This document shows positions 8,385 through 19,012 of a DNA stretch of 32,844 bases, one piece after another. The position numbers and the translations under genes were made by a program. A model generated the notes under the pieces. The model had not been told where the DNA came from. It saw only the letters and a list, made by a program, of their open reading frames with translations, and searched no databases. Position 1 is the stretch's first letter. Each line of letters starts with the position of its first letter. The stretch spans positions 1 through 32,844 of the IMG/VR virus record IMGVR_UViG_3300027704_000088. One strand, written 5' to 3'. Origin of the DNA: a virus.

Positions 8385-8769
8385 CTAAATCTTGTACAGC
8401 AGGTGCAGGGGCTTGTGATTGAGAAGCTGAAGTTTCGACGTTTTGATTTTGCTTTTCAGATACTCTTAAGGACAAATACGAACGACCTTCTTTTTCCCCT
8501 TTCCACGCAGCAATACGGTGATTGGGATGGGCATCAATTGGGCCAGAATAATCAGGCGCACCGTCATTGCCGTTTTTGTTGTTGTTAAACAAAACGCCAG
8601 CACGTTTATACATAACAATAGTAGGCTCACCGTCGCGGGTAAGCTTTTCTTTAACAAAGATTACTCTGTCTTCTGTGCCTTCAACGTTAAGCTTGCCTTG
8701 ACCAATCATGCGCTGGTCAGCGTGTGGCGTAAACATAACGCCAGAGTTTGTGTTGTCGTAATCAGACAT
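8368..8769 (-). CDS. SSB-like OB-fold protein with acidic DEVPF tail
   Basis: 133 residues. The core (about 1-105) alternates strands with GVLFNN, PDYSG and IAAWKG motifs and a YLSLRV strand, like OB-fold/DUF736-type small phage proteins. Residues 106-126 are a Gln/Ser/Ala/Pro linker, and the end is DLDEVPF, which matches the acidic -D-[DE]-x-P-F tip of bacterial SSBs that recruits replication and repair partners. It starts in a TAATG overlap with the ERF gene and has GGAG 7 nt upstream. The combination with ERF and YqaJ supports a single-strand DNA-binding role in recombination. The fold is inferred, the tail is seen directly. Confidence 0.7.
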   Translation of the reverse strand: MSDYDNTNSGVMFTPHADQRMIGQGKLNVEGTEDRVIFVKEKLTRDGEPTIVMYKRAGVLFNNNKNGNDGAPDYSGPIDAHPNHRIAAWKGEKEGRSYLSLRVSEKQNQNVETSASQSQAPAPAVQDLDEVPF

Positions 8770-9248
8770 TAAAAGTCTCCATTAGCATTTTGAATTGTTG
8801 CTGTTTTAGTGGGTTTTTTTAATGACATAGAAATATTAGGCTTTGATGCCTCATTTCCGTCATCATCTTCTGGCGCAAGGCCAACTAAACCTAGCAAGCC
8901 ATATCGTCTTGCATAAGTAATTGCAGAGCCTAAACCCTGCATATTTTGACGATCTAAAACCAGATAAACAACAGATTGAAACTTTTCCCCCGATACATGG
9001 ATTAGGGAAGTCATTACATATTGCCCGAACTGGTCGTGACCGTTTGTTTGCAGCACAGCAAAATGATAATTGTGCAGTGCTTTTTTACATGCGTCGATAC
9101 ACGCGCCTAAATCAGCATAACGATTTTTGAAATGCGGATTGATTGCATTTTTTATGACGGGATCACACGCAGCTTGCGCTGAGATTAGATCGTACAAAGC
9201 CATTTCGCGGTCAATGACGCGAGGCTTTTCAGTTTTTTTATCAGTCAT
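8769..9248 (-). CDS. erf: ERF-family single-strand annealing protein
   Basis: 159 residues. The ERF core is visible as NPHFKNRYADLGACIDACKKAL (about 40-60) and the family hallmark GSAITYARRYGL followed by acidic EDDDGN (about 121-140). ERF proteins anneal complementary single strands during phage recombination and genome circularisation and act with a 5'-3' exonuclease. The YqaJ exonuclease lies two genes upstream and the SSB-like gene directly downstream, a complete annealing module. Starts and ends in TAATG overlaps with its neighbours. The C-terminus is short, without the long tail of P22 Erf. Confidence 0.88.
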   Translation of the reverse strand: MTDKKTEKPRVIDREMALYDLISAQAACDPVIKNAINPHFKNRYADLGACIDACKKALHNYHFAVLQTNGHDQFGQYVMTSLIHVSGEKFQSVVYLVLDRQNMQGLGSAITYARRYGLLGLVGLAPEDDDGNEASKPNISMSLKKPTKTATIQNANGDF

Positions 9249-9532
9249 TAGGCAGCAACCTTATGACCAATAAACCAAATGCGGTATTGAGTTGGATGTT
9301 CGTCTGTTTTCCAATTACGAACAGCAAGTTTAACGCCTAATTTACGAGCAGCAGCAACAGTTGCGTACATAGAACGTTTGTCAGGTACTAAAAAACTTTG
9401 TTTTGGCTGCAAATTGTAAAGAAATGAATACTTACTGCCGTTTTTGCGACCAGTTGGTTTTGGTTTAGGTGGCAAATCAATGCCACTGTCTACAACAACA
9501 GTATAGACAATTTTTGAATTTGATTTAGACAT
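9248..9532 (-). CDS. Conserved small phage protein between exonuclease and ERF
   Basis: 94 residues. The N-terminal half has a Pro/Lys-rich linker (DLPPKPKPTGRKN). The C-terminal half shows QSFLVPDKRS, then a helix rich in Ala/Lys, then VRNW...YRIWFIG. The SFxVP ... R ... R-I-W pattern is common in small phage proteins encoded near recombination genes; their function is not known. The start overlaps the exonuclease end by 8 nt and the stop overlaps the ERF start as TAATG. Confidence 0.7.
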   Translation of the reverse strand: MSKSNSKIVYTVVVDSGIDLPPKPKPTGRKNGSKYSFLYNLQPKQSFLVPDKRSMYATVAAARKLGVKLAVRNWKTDEHPTQYRIWFIGHKVAA

Positions 9533-10379
9533 TAGGACGTACTTCCTTTTTGGTGATTTTGAAGAGGATGGAACCCGCTTTATTGCGTTTCATTTGCAGT
9601 GCATCGCAATAAAGTTCGGTTTCTTCGGCAGCCATCATAGCTTTGAGTTGCCGTTTTGCGTTGTCGTGAACAACAACAGCGGTTTTAGTTTCAATGTACT
9701 GACCAATCAAAACAGTGGCATGGTTGTCTGTTTGAATTGATCTGCGCGTTTTTCCGTTAAACGGTATTTGATCTGATATTTTTGTTTCTGCTGGTGTTTC
9801 CTCCTGTGGAATAAACGGTGCTGGTGCAATATCGCTTTCCATATGCTCCCAAAATTGTTGACATTTAGCATAATAGTCATCGATGTAAGGTTGGCTGCGC
9901 CCGATCCAGATACGCTCTGGTTCGTCATTGCCACGAATGACTGAAAACAGAATATTATCTGAGCCAAAGCACATCATATGATGCTGAAGTTGTGGCATAT
10001 AAAAACGTGCGGCTTCGGTAGCATCGCGGAAACGAAAGCCGCCAGAGTGTTTTACTTCCAATGGGGTTGTATCCCCTGCCCCTTCCTCAAGGATAGCGTC
10101 AGGGTGGCTTCCACACATGTCATACGTGGCCCAGTGTTGCTTGCCTTTGTAATCTTTAGACATTGTATAAATGCCGCCAGCTTCAATTTGCAGACGGTTA
10201 AAAGTCCAGTCTAAGTGAAAGTTTTCAGTAAAAATGCCTAACTGAACTTTAAAATTATCAGACAAATCTTCGCGCGTTGTTCGGCCCGTTTTTTCAGACC
10301 AGACTTTAAGCCAATTGCCATTTTTTATATCAATAGCATCAGATGATCCGATGTATGATTTTCTATCAAGCTTATCCAA
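9525..10379 (-). CDS. YqaJ-type phage exonuclease
   Basis: 284 residues. The N-terminal IGSSDA (10-15), a GxFTE helix (Glu52), the metal site HPDA (Asp94) with LEVK (Glu108-x-Lys110), and QLQHH (130-134) give the YqaJ/lambda-exonuclease core of the PD-(D/E)XK superfamily. It degrades 5' strands at double-strand ends and hands 3' tails to the ERF protein. The start is TTG 10379, chosen because AAGGA lies 8 nt upstream and the next ATG would remove the conserved IGSSDA. It overlaps the previous gene by 8 nt. Confidence 0.88.
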   Translation of the reverse strand: MDKLDRKSYIGSSDAIDIKNGNWLKVWSEKTGRTTREDLSDNFKVQLGIFTENFHLDWTFNRLQIEAGGIYTMSKDYKGKQHWATYDMCGSHPDAILEEGAGDTTPLEVKHSGGFRFRDATEAARFYMPQLQHHMMCFGSDNILFSVIRGNDEPERIWIGRSQPYIDDYYAKCQQFWEHMESDIAPAPFIPQEETPAETKISDQIPFNGKTRRSIQTDNHATVLIGQYIETKTAVVVHDNAKRQLKAMMAAEETELYCDALQMKRNKAGSILFKITKKEVRPNV

Positions 10380-12252: not shown

Positions 12253-13320
12253 TCATGTATTTGGGTGTTGTTGTAATTTGATTAAAATATTGTCGTTGCC
12301 TTGTGGATGCAGTGAACAATAAATTTCTACCATTTTAGCTGCGTGCTGTACTGACCAGCCCATAAATAGCGCAAGATCAGACAATGACACGCCAGCAGCA
12401 AACAATTTTGTAGCTGCTGTGCCTCTTGCGTCATACAAATGCAGTTCTGGTCTTATATTGGTGTGGTTTTTTTTCCATTCACCAAGTTTTTGACCAAATT
12501 GATTTGCTTTTTTTAATGGCAAGCCTCTAGCACCAACTAAAATCTGAAATTGATCGGACGGAGTTTCGTCCAATGTTAATCTTAATTTATTTGTTATTGG
12601 AATTGATACCATTCGCCCATTTTTTTGAGCGCGTAGAATAATTCTAGTATCTTTTATGTGGCTACGGTTAAGCTGGTGTAAATCGCCTGGGCGCAATCCA
12701 GTTTCCGTTGCTACAATAAGAACTCTTTTTAACCATTGGGGCGCTATCGCGCAAAATTCATTAATTTCTGTTTCTGTCCAGATAATTTCTGATCTGTCAG
12801 ACGAATATAATTTTTTAACTTTTTGCAAATGATGTTGAACAAGCCAACCGCGATCTAATGCCCAAGTGACAATTTGAGCAAGATGACCAATACGAGTATC
12901 TGCTTGCACAAAGCCATCACCTTTAGATGCTTTAGCTATGCTGTCACGCCACGCATAAACTTGTTTGCGTATACGAGGATCATTAAATGCTTGTATAGGA
13001 GCGTCACCAAATTTAATATCAATCCCGTTTTTATGGAATACAGATTCTTTAATGTCTTTTTGAGTACGTTCAGCAAGTTTTTTAAACTCAGGTGTGTTGA
13101 GAAATGAAATTACTATTTCTCTGAATTTGCCTTTAGCTGGAGAAATGTTCTGTAAAGCTTCTTGATAAAGTTCAAAATAAATTGGCCCACCAAGTTGCAC
13201 TTTGTCAGATGAAGACCAGAAACGAGTGCCGCCTCTGTAAAGATAATGATATTCAGCAGTTTTTCCATTCGCTAATTTTTTGCGAACTTTGTGAATATGT
13301 TTAATTGTTATCTTTGCCAT
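12253..13320 (-). CDS. int: Tyrosine-recombinase integrase
   Basis: 355 residues from ATG 13320; a TTG at 13329 would add three residues. It catalyses recombination between attP and the host tRNA-Gln attB. Catalytic residues seen: Arg210 (TGLRPGDL), Arg299 (YDARGTAA), Trp322 (MGWS) at the second His position, and the nucleophile Tyr334 (VEIYCS). The first His of the H-x-x-R box is Tyr296, a variant common in alphaproteobacterial phage integrases. Residues 1-60 hold basic and strand-rich sequence for arm binding, and 65-165 fit the core-binding domain. It overlaps the upstream small gene by 20 nt and lies next to its attP. Confidence 0.93.
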   Translation of the reverse strand: MAKITIKHIHKVRKKLANGKTAEYHYLYRGGTRFWSSSDKVQLGGPIYFELYQEALQNISPAKGKFREIVISFLNTPEFKKLAERTQKDIKESVFHKNGIDIKFGDAPIQAFNDPRIRKQVYAWRDSIAKASKGDGFVQADTRIGHLAQIVTWALDRGWLVQHHLQKVKKLYSSDRSEIIWTETEINEFCAIAPQWLKRVLIVATETGLRPGDLHQLNRSHIKDTRIILRAQKNGRMVSIPITNKLRLTLDETPSDQFQILVGARGLPLKKANQFGQKLGEWKKNHTNIRPELHLYDARGTAATKLFAAGVSLSDLALFMGWSVQHAAKMVEIYCSLHPQGNDNILIKLQQHPNT

Positions 13321-13486
13321 TGTCTTCAAACCATTGATCTACTTCATCATCGTTGACACGTTGATTTCGTTTTTCAAAAGTTATTGTGATTTTTTCACCT
13401 TCTGAAGTTTTACTAAAGACAATGTTTGCTTGCGTTGTCAAATTATGATCTGACAATGCGTCAATAAGTGTTCTTAACGATCTCAC
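13301..13486 (-). CDS. Small protein upstream of integrase
   Basis: 61 residues: a helical start (SLRTLIDALSDHNL), a beta hairpin (ANIVFSKTSEGEKITITFEK), then an acidic tail (DDEVDQWFEDNGKD). It overlaps the integrase start, so the two are co-translated. The position is that of an excisionase, but no helix-turn-helix or winged fold is clear. The EGEKITITF strand resembles DGDKITITL of the 92-residue protein at 14496-14774, which may reflect shared ancestry or chance. Confidence 0.6.
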   Translation of the reverse strand: MRSLRTLIDALSDHNLTTQANIVFSKTSEGEKITITFEKRNQRVNDDEVDQWFEDNGKDNN

Positions 13487-13590: not shown

Positions 13591-14499
13591 TCAAGCGGCT
13601 TGCACCATATGTGGACAGTTTTGAAACCATTCTATAGCTTTGTTAGCTTCAGCAGCCGCTGAAAAAACCGTTGAAGGTTTATTTTCAAGGTTTTTGATCC
13701 AGCTTTGGACGTAGGCAACGTTGTCCTCTCTAGGGGTGTGTTGTATTCCAAATATTGAGCCGAGAAATACGGACCCAATTTCTGCGATGAGTTCTTCTTC
13801 TGCTCTTGCTGCTTTTGAGTTGTGATACTCTTTGAAACATCCGCGATCCATGCGATTTGATGGACCTGTGTAGTGGATGGTTTCATGCAAAAGCGTCGAG
13901 TAATAATTTTCCGAAGCTGTTGCGTCATCCGTATCAAGAAACGTGGTGGGGTCAGGCATACCAATTTTATCGGTTGCGCGAGTGTAAAAAGCCGATTGAG
14001 ATTTAACAATGTTTACTCCTGCACGATCTAGAAAGCTGTCAATGTTTCTACTGCGAATATGAATTGATGGATGATGCTCGTTAAGCGGAACAAGCTGACT
14101 TTCATCAATTGAAGTGAATTGAGCTACGTTAAAGCCGTTGTAGACTTTATATCGTGGGTATTTTTTAGTCGGATCGTTTTTATCTTCAACAACTGTAAAG
14201 AAACAAATAGGCGTCGATTTTGAGCCCTTTATTACATTACCAGCACCGATCTTTCTGGATGCTGGAATTGTTAAAAATCTTGGATCATCCCAGCCGTTTT
14301 CCATCATAGCAATTGCTGTTGTAAGAACGTTTGAGCCTGTATAAACATGACCAGTTATGGCGTTTTGACAGGGACGTGGCTGCGCCCAACGTGCTGTCCA
14401 TTTAATGCCGTTTTCCTTCATCATAATGATAAATTTGTCGGCAATTTCTTTTTGAACCCTGTTAATACGGGGTTCTTTAATGTCTGTGTCGATTTTCAT
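13591..14499 (-). CDS. ArdC-like antirestriction protein with zincin domain
   Basis: 302 residues. The N-terminal domain (1-130) carries the ArdC/DUF1738 signature of a Trp-rich start (GIKWTARWAQ), N-A-I-T-G-x-x-Y-x-G-x-N, and a KVYNGFNVAQF strand; this domain binds single-stranded DNA. The C-terminal domain has the zincin motif HETIH (205-209) and a third ligand in EELIAEIG (Glu236). ArdC proteins protect incoming DNA from type I and other restriction. It starts in an ATGA overlap with the upstream gene and has AAGGA 9 nt before the ATG. Family assignment is firm; protection in this host is inferred. Confidence 0.87.
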   Translation of the reverse strand: MKIDTDIKEPRINRVQKEIADKFIIMMKENGIKWTARWAQPRPCQNAITGHVYTGSNVLTTAIAMMENGWDDPRFLTIPASRKIGAGNVIKGSKSTPICFFTVVEDKNDPTKKYPRYKVYNGFNVAQFTSIDESQLVPLNEHHPSIHIRSRNIDSFLDRAGVNIVKSQSAFYTRATDKIGMPDPTTFLDTDDATASENYYSTLLHETIHYTGPSNRMDRGCFKEYHNSKAARAEEELIAEIGSVFLGSIFGIQHTPREDNVAYVQSWIKNLENKPSTVFSAAAEANKAIEWFQNCPHMVQAA

Positions 14500-16927: not shown

Positions 16928-17207
16928 TGAAAAACTCATGCCATGTATTAGGAAATTCGTGCGATTTGTGAGTCCAACTCGCTACGGTTGCAAATGATTC
17001 ACCTGTGCGATCATCAATTGCAATATTGTCGATGTAAGTCGGAAGACCGTGATCGGTATCTTGAACCTTATCAACAAGCTTTCCAGCTATTTCAGTATTC
17101 AGCTGGAAGAAACGTTCAGCTTCGTGATTACAGTCAAAAGACTTAGTGTGATATTTAAAACCATGACGGTTAAAATAACGTACTTCATAAACAATATTGT
17201 AAGTCAT
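16920..17207 (-). CDS. Small early hypothetical protein
   Basis: 95 residues: strands (NIVYEVRYF, KYHTKSFD), a helix (EAERFFQLNTEIAGKLV), then strands and aromatic-rich C-terminus. It starts in a TAATG overlap with the membrane protein gene and ends by overlapping the acidic gene. No family recognised. Confidence 0.65.
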   Translation of the reverse strand: MTYNIVYEVRYFNRHGFKYHTKSFDCNHEAERFFQLNTEIAGKLVDKVQDTDHGLPTYIDNIAIDDRTGESFATVASWTHKSHEFPNTWHEFFNG

Positions 17208-17431
17208 TATGAACGACCCCGCTTGAAAGAGGGACGATACTGCAACGCTGATTTAACGTGAGGCAAAGCGGCATTGAATGATATATCAATACCAAGTGCC
17301 AGTAGGCGCAGCGGTGCTAATGCAAGACCAGCAACGATAAGAAACAGAACAACGACAATAGCTAACGCTGTAAGTTCAATTTTGACAAACGTTGAAAGCA
17401 ACGGGTATTTCTTAAACGTGAACAAATTCAT
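17207..17431 (-). CDS. Small membrane protein, first gene of the leftward early operon
   Basis: 74 residues from ATG 17431 with AAAGG 7-8 nt upstream; a GTG at 17458 has no good site. Residues about 12-45 are hydrophobic (IELTALAIVVVLFLIVAGLAL) with a possible second amphipathic segment and a basic Arg-rich tail. Being first in the early leftward operon, it may act on the host envelope, for example in superinfection exclusion; this is inference. Confidence 0.65.
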   Translation of the reverse strand: MNLFTFKKYPLLSTFVKIELTALAIVVVLFLIVAGLALAPLRLLALGIDISFNAALPHVKSALQYRPSFKRGRS

Positions 17432-17517
17432 AACATAACCTTTCAAAACAACACCCACATTATTGTGAATGTTGCATCCGCAATCACTCAGGATTTCTGG
17501 AAAGGGGGATCGCCAAT

Positions 17518-17547
17518 CATTTCACCCAGCTTTTTGCTGGCGAAATG
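17518..17547. repeat. Hairpin upstream of the first leftward early gene
   Basis: CATTTC (17518-17523) pairs with GAAATG (17542-17547), and CCAGC (17526-17530) with GCTGG (17536-17540), around a TTTTT loop. It lies about 90 nt before the membrane-protein gene, probably in its leader or just upstream of the promoter. Confidence 0.5.
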
Positions 17548-17671
17548 TGCGGCATCACACGCAAATCAAAGCCGTTCTTCACGGCTCAGCAAGCTATTTT
17601 TAATCTAAACAAGTAAAAATGTTCTTAAAAAATCGCGGCACTTTGATTTTTACAGAAATACGGGCCATACC

Positions 17672-17734
17672 GGAGGTAATAATCCAATGATGTGTGTGTG
17701 TGGGTGGATTGAACTGGCTTTTTTTTATGGCTAG
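17672..17734 (+). CDS. Candidate 15-residue leader peptide
   Basis: GGAGGT (17672-17677) is followed 9 nt later by ATG 17687 and a 15-codon frame ending at TAG 17732-17734. The product is MMCVCGWIELAFFYG. The end of the frame runs into a hairpin (TGGCTTTTTT at 17715-17724 with AAAAAAGCCA at 17736-17745). A ribosome on the frame would open this hairpin, as in attenuation leaders. It precedes the structured region on the same strand. No downstream gene of the same transcript is obvious before small terminase. Confidence 0.35.
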   Translation, partial: GGNNPMMCVCGWIELAFFYG

Positions 17735-17744
17735 TAAAAAAGCC

Positions 17745-18290
17745 ATCTGCGCCTCAACTCCGAAAGAGTTGTAAGCAGATATTCAATTCACTCATTATAA
17801 GGCGCTCTGCGCCGCACCGCCTGTGTTCGCCACCCGCAGCGAAGCGAGGATGGTAGCAAGAACACTAATAGGCGGGGGTCGCGTCTGCGCAATCAGCCCA
17901 ATGTATCAACGCATATGCTTCATAGTGATACTTGGGCCTCCGTGACGGTGCCTCACGCGGTAGATGAGAGGCCCAAGGGAACGGTGAGTCTGACCAAGCT
18001 GAGACGAGGTTGTTAACTGTGCCCTACTGGACACAGGGAACAATCTTCAAACAGGTCGATTTTGAGTAGCAAAATCTTCACTGGCCTAGCTTGGAGTTTT
18101 TTACATAAAGCGTGTCTACGCGTAAAAAAGGACGCGGTTTGAAGACCGTCAGGCCGAGCCAGCTTGTCAGAGGGAATGCTATTGCAGCAACAAGCCCGCA
18201 ATAGTGGCAGTCACCCGCAGGGATAAGACGGACATAGTTCGGCTTAGTCTTTGATGACAGAGCGGCCATTGCCCATAAGCAATTGCTGAG
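17745..18290 (+). ncRNA. Candidate large structured phage RNA
   Basis: Eleven or more complementary stems lie in about 545 nt without a coding frame: ATCTGC/GCAGAT with CAACTC/GAGTTG; GGCGC-TCT-GCGCC; CCGCCT/AGGCGG with GTGTTC/GAACAC; a 12-bp stem 17896-17908/17926-17937; a 10-bp stem 17931-17940/17968-17977; GGTTGTT/AACAATC with CTGTG/CACAG; GATTTT/AAAATC; CCAAGCT/AGCTTGG closing a multiloop; TTTTTTAC/GTAAAAAA with GCGT/ACGC; TCTTCAAAC/GTTTGAAGA forming a pseudoknot across that multiloop; CTATTGC/GCAATAG; ATTGC/GCAAT. One G-U pair favours the + strand. Size and complexity recall ornate phage RNAs such as GOLLD and ROOL, but homology cannot be judged by eye. Confidence 0.45.
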
Positions 18291-18344
18291 AATAAATACG
18301 ACGAACTTATGTCCTATGTGAATCAATCAACGGTTTCCATTCAG

Positions 18345-18374
18345 TTTACCTACATGTGGTAAAATTGCCATATT
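18345..18374 (+). promoter_or_regulatory. Candidate rightward (late) promoter overlapping an AGTTTAC site
   Basis: TTTACC (18345-18350), an 18-nt spacer and CATATT (18369-18374) give a moderate sigma70 promoter with the same -35/spacer layout as the leftward promoter at 12026-12055. The -35 box lies in AGTTTAC (18343-18349). A second -35 (TTGACA 18373-18378) with a weak -10 follows. Either would give a leader of about 130 nt before small terminase. Confidence 0.4.
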
Positions 18375-18532
18375 GACACGCAACATGATGTGGCCGATAC
18401 CCTTCTCTACCGGGGGTTTGGGGGCCGGAGGCCACACCATTGAGGATCGAACGCTAAGCAAAGCGAACAAGTGACAATAACGAGCACCGACGCGGCATAT
18501 AAAGCTCACTTACTTGGACTTAACATCGACGC

Positions 18533-19012
18533 ATGAACGATCTTATTACATTAGATGAAATCACGCCATTAACACTGCCAGATGGCGAGCAGTTAGACGC
18601 AAGACAGTCTTTAGCTATTACATTACGCGCAACATCCACTTTGAACATAGACGAGATAGCCAAAGAGTGCGGTTATGCTGGAAGATCAACATGTTCGCAC
18701 TTCTTGAGATCAGATAGAGGTAAGGCTGGGGTTCAAGTAGCAATCAGGCAACACCTACTGGATGGAGCCAGAGTAGGCTTACAGACCATGGTTAGCTTGG
18801 CTACCAGTGCCAGATCAGAGAACGTCAGGCAGTTAGCAGCAGCGGACTTGCTGGATAGAGCAGGCTACACTGGCGAGGCTACAGCGGTGGAAGCAAGCAC
18901 AGGTAATAGGGATGTGAACATATCCATTAATTTAAACAGTGCGGACACAGGCATAGTGATTGATGGACAGAAGTTAGTTGAGGAAGAAACAGATATACAG
19001 GGAGAGAGCTAA
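18533..19012 (+). CDS. Terminase small subunit
   Basis: 159 residues. The N-terminal helix-turn-helix region (LNIDEIAKECGYAGRSTCSHFLRS, about 37-60) is the DNA-recognition part. A helical segment with VRQLAAADLLDRAGYTG (about 98-114) is typical of small terminases of phages from Proteobacteria. The C-terminus is acidic, as in the portion that contacts the large subunit. It recognises packaging-initiation DNA, which probably lies in the G-rich region just upstream. First gene of the rightward operon; ribosome site weak (GGA far upstream). Confidence 0.85.
   Translation: MNDLITLDEITPLTLPDGEQLDARQSLAITLRATSTLNIDEIAKECGYAGRSTCSHFLRSDRGKAGVQVAIRQHLLDGARVGLQTMVSLATSARSENVRQLAAADLLDRAGYTGEATAVEASTGNRDVNISINLNSADTGIVIDGQKLVEEETDIQGES

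Follow-up and report, generated by a model that had tools for sequence, protein, structure and literature searches.

The 32,844-nt record of a marine bacterial virus analyzed here (IMG/VR IMGVR_UViG_3300027704_000088; its full length is hereafter the window) contains a divergent junction at positions 17459 to 18532, where leftward early genes, an integrase gene among them, meet rightward late genes that begin with the terminase small subunit gene (terS) (Table 1). The early gene that bounds the region on the left has no PHROG match. An earlier note on this DNA had proposed a large, pseudoknotted phage RNA in a gene-free interval between the early and late operons, at 17745 to 18290. The interval does lie inside the junction, and no plus-strand open reading frame (ORF) of at least 50 aa was found between 17438 and 18533. 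Neither of the two minus-strand ORFs in the region (62 and 82 aa) matched Pfam, and the longer one is lost in the nearest relative; a conserved protein in the junction is thus rejected, and no conserved coding frame runs through the region. A search of the whole window for tRNA and tmRNA genes found none.

Table 1. Genes, predicted RNA domains, and conserved blocks around the early/late junction (positions in the window)
Feature	Position	Strand or direction	Basis or remark
ERF protein	8769-9248	leftward, early	
YqaJ-like protein	9525-10379	leftward, early	
Integrase	12253-13329	leftward, early	
Anti-restriction protein	13591-14499	leftward, early	
Leftward early gene nearest the junction (83 aa), bounding the RNA region on the left	17207-17458	-	ORF
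Conserved 5' element	17492-17661	+	covariance model of 17506-17650
(TG)n element	17691-17702	+	alignment; same position in lineages A, B, and C, L219, and L221
Domain with 16-bp closing helix (17697-17713 with 17782-17799) and hairpins 17716-17744 and 17745-17780	17697-17799	+	fold, L085
Two hairpins, 17801-17813 and 17817-17875 (the latter long and imperfect)	17801-17875	+	fold; pairs the same in L085
Domain with hairpin GCCCAATGTAT...ATACTTGGGC	17880-17950	+	consensus of lineage A and L085
CAAGCTG/CAGCTTG stem (17995-18001 with 18160-18166) around expandable domain 18006-18158	17995-18166	+	
Possible nested stem TCTTCAAAC/GTTTGAAGA	18044-18052 with 18137-18145	+	constrained folds
3' domain, hairpin 18242-18263 within a GACATAGTTCG/CGAACTTATGTC helix	18231-18313	+	fold and L085
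Conserved 3' block: TTGACA (promoter-like), GGGGGTTTGGGGGCCGG, CACCGACGCGGC	18350-18511	+	conserved across lineages
Terminase small subunit (terS), first late gene	18533-19012	+	phrog_2538, E 2.9e-12
Terminase large subunit	from 20376	rightward, late	
Head-tail adaptor	from 22338	rightward, late	
Major head protein	from 25550	rightward, late	

Positions 17700 to 18330 have a predicted folding energy of -232 kcal/mol, with z scores of -7.4 on the plus strand and -4.0 on the minus strand, and no shuffled sequence folded as well. The helix list places more than eleven stems within 17745 to 18290, in agreement with the proposal of at least eleven stems of 5 to 12 bp; the proposed interval of about 545 nt is nevertheless too short, since covariation-supported structure begins near 17490 and folding continues to about 18330. 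A relative with 87% identity, L085, keeps the closing stem of the domain at 17697 to 17799 and lacks one whole inner hairpin, and part of the 17880 to 17950 domain is paired otherwise in the window's own minimum-energy fold.

The proposed pseudoknot was not supported. It had TCTTCAAAC crossing to pair with GTTTGAAGA outside a multiloop closed by CCAAGCT (at 17994) and AGCTTGG (at 18088), but the minimum-energy fold instead pairs CAAGCTG with CAGCTTG and leaves everything nested, and L085 can form this closing stem too. In constrained folds the TCTTCAAAC/GTTTGAAGA stem then nests inside the CAAGCTG/CAGCTTG stem (-229.4 versus -232.3 kcal/mol), making a crossing unnecessary. Comparison with L085 also indicates that the domain at 18006 to 18158, which comprises most of the proposed pseudoknot domain, is not conserved, because about 40 nt stands in its place there.

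Relatives were gathered by terminase-guided and pattern-guided scans and comprise lineage A (the window, L085, L118, and the partial contigs L195 and L197), lineage B (L095 to L098), lineage C (L086 and L087), lineage D (L027, L088, L090, L091, and L093), lineage E (L028), and the more distant L023 and L217 to L222. Many further contigs have terminase large subunits of about 43% identity, among them the isolate Pelagibacter phage Hodr (L188). A scan for lineage A body variants with a 20-base pattern recovered only contigs that were already known, and blastn against isolated phages found no relative of the region. A gene-poor stretch separates the leftward gene from terS in lineages A to E and in L217, L218, L219, and L221, and L023 has a 251-aa ORF at that place. 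In lineages A, B, and C, the DNA sequence is conserved at each end of the gap, and the middle cannot be aligned between lineages. A leftward gene for a small Lys/Arg-rich protein lies between the folded region and terS in L219 (about -417 to -171, counted from terS) and in L221 (about -400 to -250 on that count).

The best-conserved part found in the structure is its 5' element. In this element, a GAT-C-GCC/GGC-ATC helix (17508-17514 with 17551-17556) encloses a variable stem at 17518 to 17547, and a AAATCAAAG/CTTTGATTT helix closes a multiloop containing a hairpin at 17572 to 17584. A covariance model of 17506 to 17650, built from lineage A alone, matched lineage B (E values of 1e-15 and 2e-11) and lineage C (1e-7 to 2e-7) at the same place upstream of terS. 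When relatives were aligned to this model, 98.4% of cells were paired and 6 pairs had both sides changed; the covariation score exceeds those of all 500 shuffles and of all slid controls (29 to 46% paired), although it is somewhat favored because the alignment was fitted to the structure and is incorrect for lineage C in the outer helix. The loops of the element are conserved and the stems variable. The model found no match in L218, L219, L221, lineages D and E, or pelagiphages, and the other DNA-pattern matches among the viral_contigs (L191 to L194, L196, and L198) look like chance. An inner segment at 17590 to 17634 (AAGCTATTTTTAATCTAAACAAG...) is near-identical in the window and lineage B (L096) and is replaced by another hairpin in the closer L085, which suggests module exchange between phages.

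Covariation in the body was assessed in pairs of relatives, independently of any consensus. When the L096 fold was imposed on L095, 5 pairs were broken on the plus strand versus 17.2 expected (none of 2,000 randomizations was as low) and 4 double changes were found versus 0.8 expected, with a weaker result on the minus strand; the L088 fold in L027 has 4 double changes versus 0.17 expected, equally on both strands. For the lineage A body, L085 as the reference gave 9 broken pairs versus 14.4 expected (P = 0.02, from one relative), and the window as the reference gave no covariation signal; the lineage C body likewise gave no covariation support. The covariation that the earlier note had asked for is thus present in the 5' element, upstream of the proposed interval, and weak within 17745 to 18290, because the body diverges beyond alignment and one alignable relative was found.

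The call of strand rests on the relatives, since the two strands of the window fold about equally over 17500 to 18330 (z scores of -5.8 on the plus strand and -6.1 on the minus strand). Isolated helix mismatches across 21 regions, some of them related, comprise 40 G·U and 14 A·C in the plus sense. This count is strand-neutral, as folds were restricted to Watson-Crick pairs, and the excess of G over C alone would give an estimated G·U:A·C ratio of only about 1.1; the comparison therefore favors an RNA of the plus strand over cruciform DNA and a leftward leader.

With moderate confidence, we interpret the region as a large, modular, structured noncoding RNA of about 800 to 830 nt on the plus strand, probably transcribed independently at the early/late control region. 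The central proposal of a large structured phage RNA remains the best reading in this form, through the lack of a gene, the covariation in the 5' element, the structure-preserving substitutions in two pairs of relatives, and the plus-strand wobble bias; the pseudoknot is dropped. The RNA would be made during infection from the divergent control region, and its architecture (a conserved 5' element, a variable body, and a separate block for the late promoter and packaging) would be kept while the body changes rapidly, through substitutions that preserve stems and through the insertion, loss, and exchange of hairpins and domains. Such an RNA is presumably important to the phage. That the whole RNA has a common origin is inferred from its position and from short motifs, because the body cannot be aligned between lineages.

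The block before terS probably combines a late promoter with a cos/packaging site. GGGGGTTTGGGGGCCGG and CACCGACGCGGC (18403-18443 and 18485-18497) are conserved ahead of terS, and as a spaced pair they are restricted to this phage group in a search of the viral_contigs. The order TTGACA, GGGGGTTTGGGGG, CACCGACGCGGC at the 3' end of the gap is kept more widely than in lineages A to C, and near relatives have TTGACA, G-run, and CACCGACGCGGC elements after a folded block. In L030 and Hodr, a near-canonical -10 sequence (TACTAT or TATACT) follows TTGACA by 16 to 17 nt, and from these elements a promoter for the late operon itself seems to lie downstream of the RNA. A scan of 17200 to 18700 found no sigma-70 promoter-like site, which counts against an independent transcript, as does the lack of a terminator-like site at the 3' end.

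This arrangement bears on the leading alternative, in which the late operon begins with a long structured 5' leader: rightward transcripts from about 17480 would carry a fold that controls entry into terS and the structural genes by put-like antitermination, RNase III processing, or attenuation. The plus strand is co-oriented with the late genes, the region lies upstream of terS in the lineages seen, and no terminator-like site was found at the 3' end of the RNA, all of which a leader would explain. It may hold, but an independent RNA is the likelier reading, because most lineages have the TTGACA block after the RNA and before terS, with a near-canonical -10 in L030 and Hodr, and because the leftward gene intervenes in L219 and L221. 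Known put RNAs are, moreover, far shorter than this region of about 800 nt.

It is improbable that the region acts as DNA, whether as a replication origin, a repressor or activator array, or part of the packaging site, with its inverted repeats serving as cruciforms or protein sites. The region adjoins the probable cos site, and the junctions of L176, Hodr, and L130 fold strongly on both strands, those of L176 and Hodr with long near-perfect palindromes; against this, G·U mismatches exceed A·C by about 3:1 in strand-neutral helices, and the 5' element combines conserved loops with variable stems. That the functional RNA is the minus strand, as a structured 5' untranslated region of the leftward early operon, is very unlikely given the plus-strand preference in the L096/L095 pair and in the mismatch count, even though the minus strand folds strongly in the window too and a long hairpin in Hodr holds the leftward gene's Shine-Dalgarno sequence on one arm. 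This hairpin (L188:4585-4760) carries Shine-Dalgarno-like AAAGGAGG in its arms in both directions and covers the start of the leftward gene. The junction of L176 (L176:3038-3894) contains 850 nt of nested near-perfect palindromes, with z scores of -13.9 and -14.8 on the two strands. The RNA was also compared, as a possible antisense, with other genes of the phage, and this reading was rejected, the matches of 11 to 15 nt being at chance level.

The earlier note had offered a new family or a diverged member of a known one such as GOLLD or ROOL. A search with the Rfam 15 models (4,227 families, including GOLLD, ROOL, and pRNA) gave no relevant match in the window at the gathering score or in 17400 to 18600 at E values of ≤1, and seven relatives likewise had no GOLLD or ROOL match and nothing else relevant; no description of this RNA turned up in the literature searched. 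A new RNA is the better reading, with no detectable Rfam 15 family. By general character, the region is gene-free, strongly folded, and covarying, in the 5' element and weakly in the body. The phi29 pRNA is also a phage RNA, and the region here adjoins terminase genes and a probable packaging site, but pRNA is far shorter, and this phage has ordinary genes for both terminase subunits. ROOL is likewise large, multistemmed, and phage borne, but it has multiple pseudoknots, whereas the one crossing proposed here is better nested, and no tRNA gene lies nearby. The GOLLD transcript accumulates during lysis. GOLLD resembles this RNA in being large (about 800 nt), ornate, and phage borne with a variable 5' region, but it often lies near tRNA genes, of which the window has none. 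Its 3' region is the conserved one (PMC12286853), whereas the best-conserved element found here lies at the 5' end. GOLLD and ROOL are known to form cages, and their function is not known (PMC12286853). The most abundant transcript of phage ICP1 is an RNA of about 800 nt from an ORF-less space of about 1 kb beside the lysis cluster, observed by RNA-seq (PMC7567579). Compared by description rather than sequence, the two share an ORF-less phage gap of about 1 kb, a similar length, and the lack of a nearby tRNA, but the RNA here is predicted from sequence and precedes terS. By analogy with GOLLD, ROOL, and the ICP1 RNA, it may be abundant and act in trans, as a scaffold or as a sequestering RNA.

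More tentatively, the clade of marine podo-like phages as a whole, including relatives that infect Pelagibacter and Rhodobacteraceae, might carry large modular RNAs of a class not described before at the early/late junction. These would be rebuilt so fast that position and short motifs alone survive, and would act in trans as RNA machines or cages in the manner of GOLLD and ROOL. If so, large structured RNAs distinct from both would recur in a marine phage group, their fast divergence would explain why family-based searches miss them, and the cultivated host of Hodr would make the function of a giant phage RNA testable. Many terminase-related phages have a folded gene-free block at the same site, divergent in sequence. 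The wider clade (terminase identity of <60%) gave 26 distinct divergent gaps of 200 nt or longer, 12 of which have plus-strand z scores below -3, most with TTGACA, although gene calls there are crude and some gaps are perhaps not the early/late junction. A bulged-G hairpin motif is confined, among the loci examined, to the RNA regions of lineages B and C, L219/L220, and L221, and a tandem-hairpin motif upstream of terS, with double changes, is common to L028, L030, L039, L115, L116, and L217.
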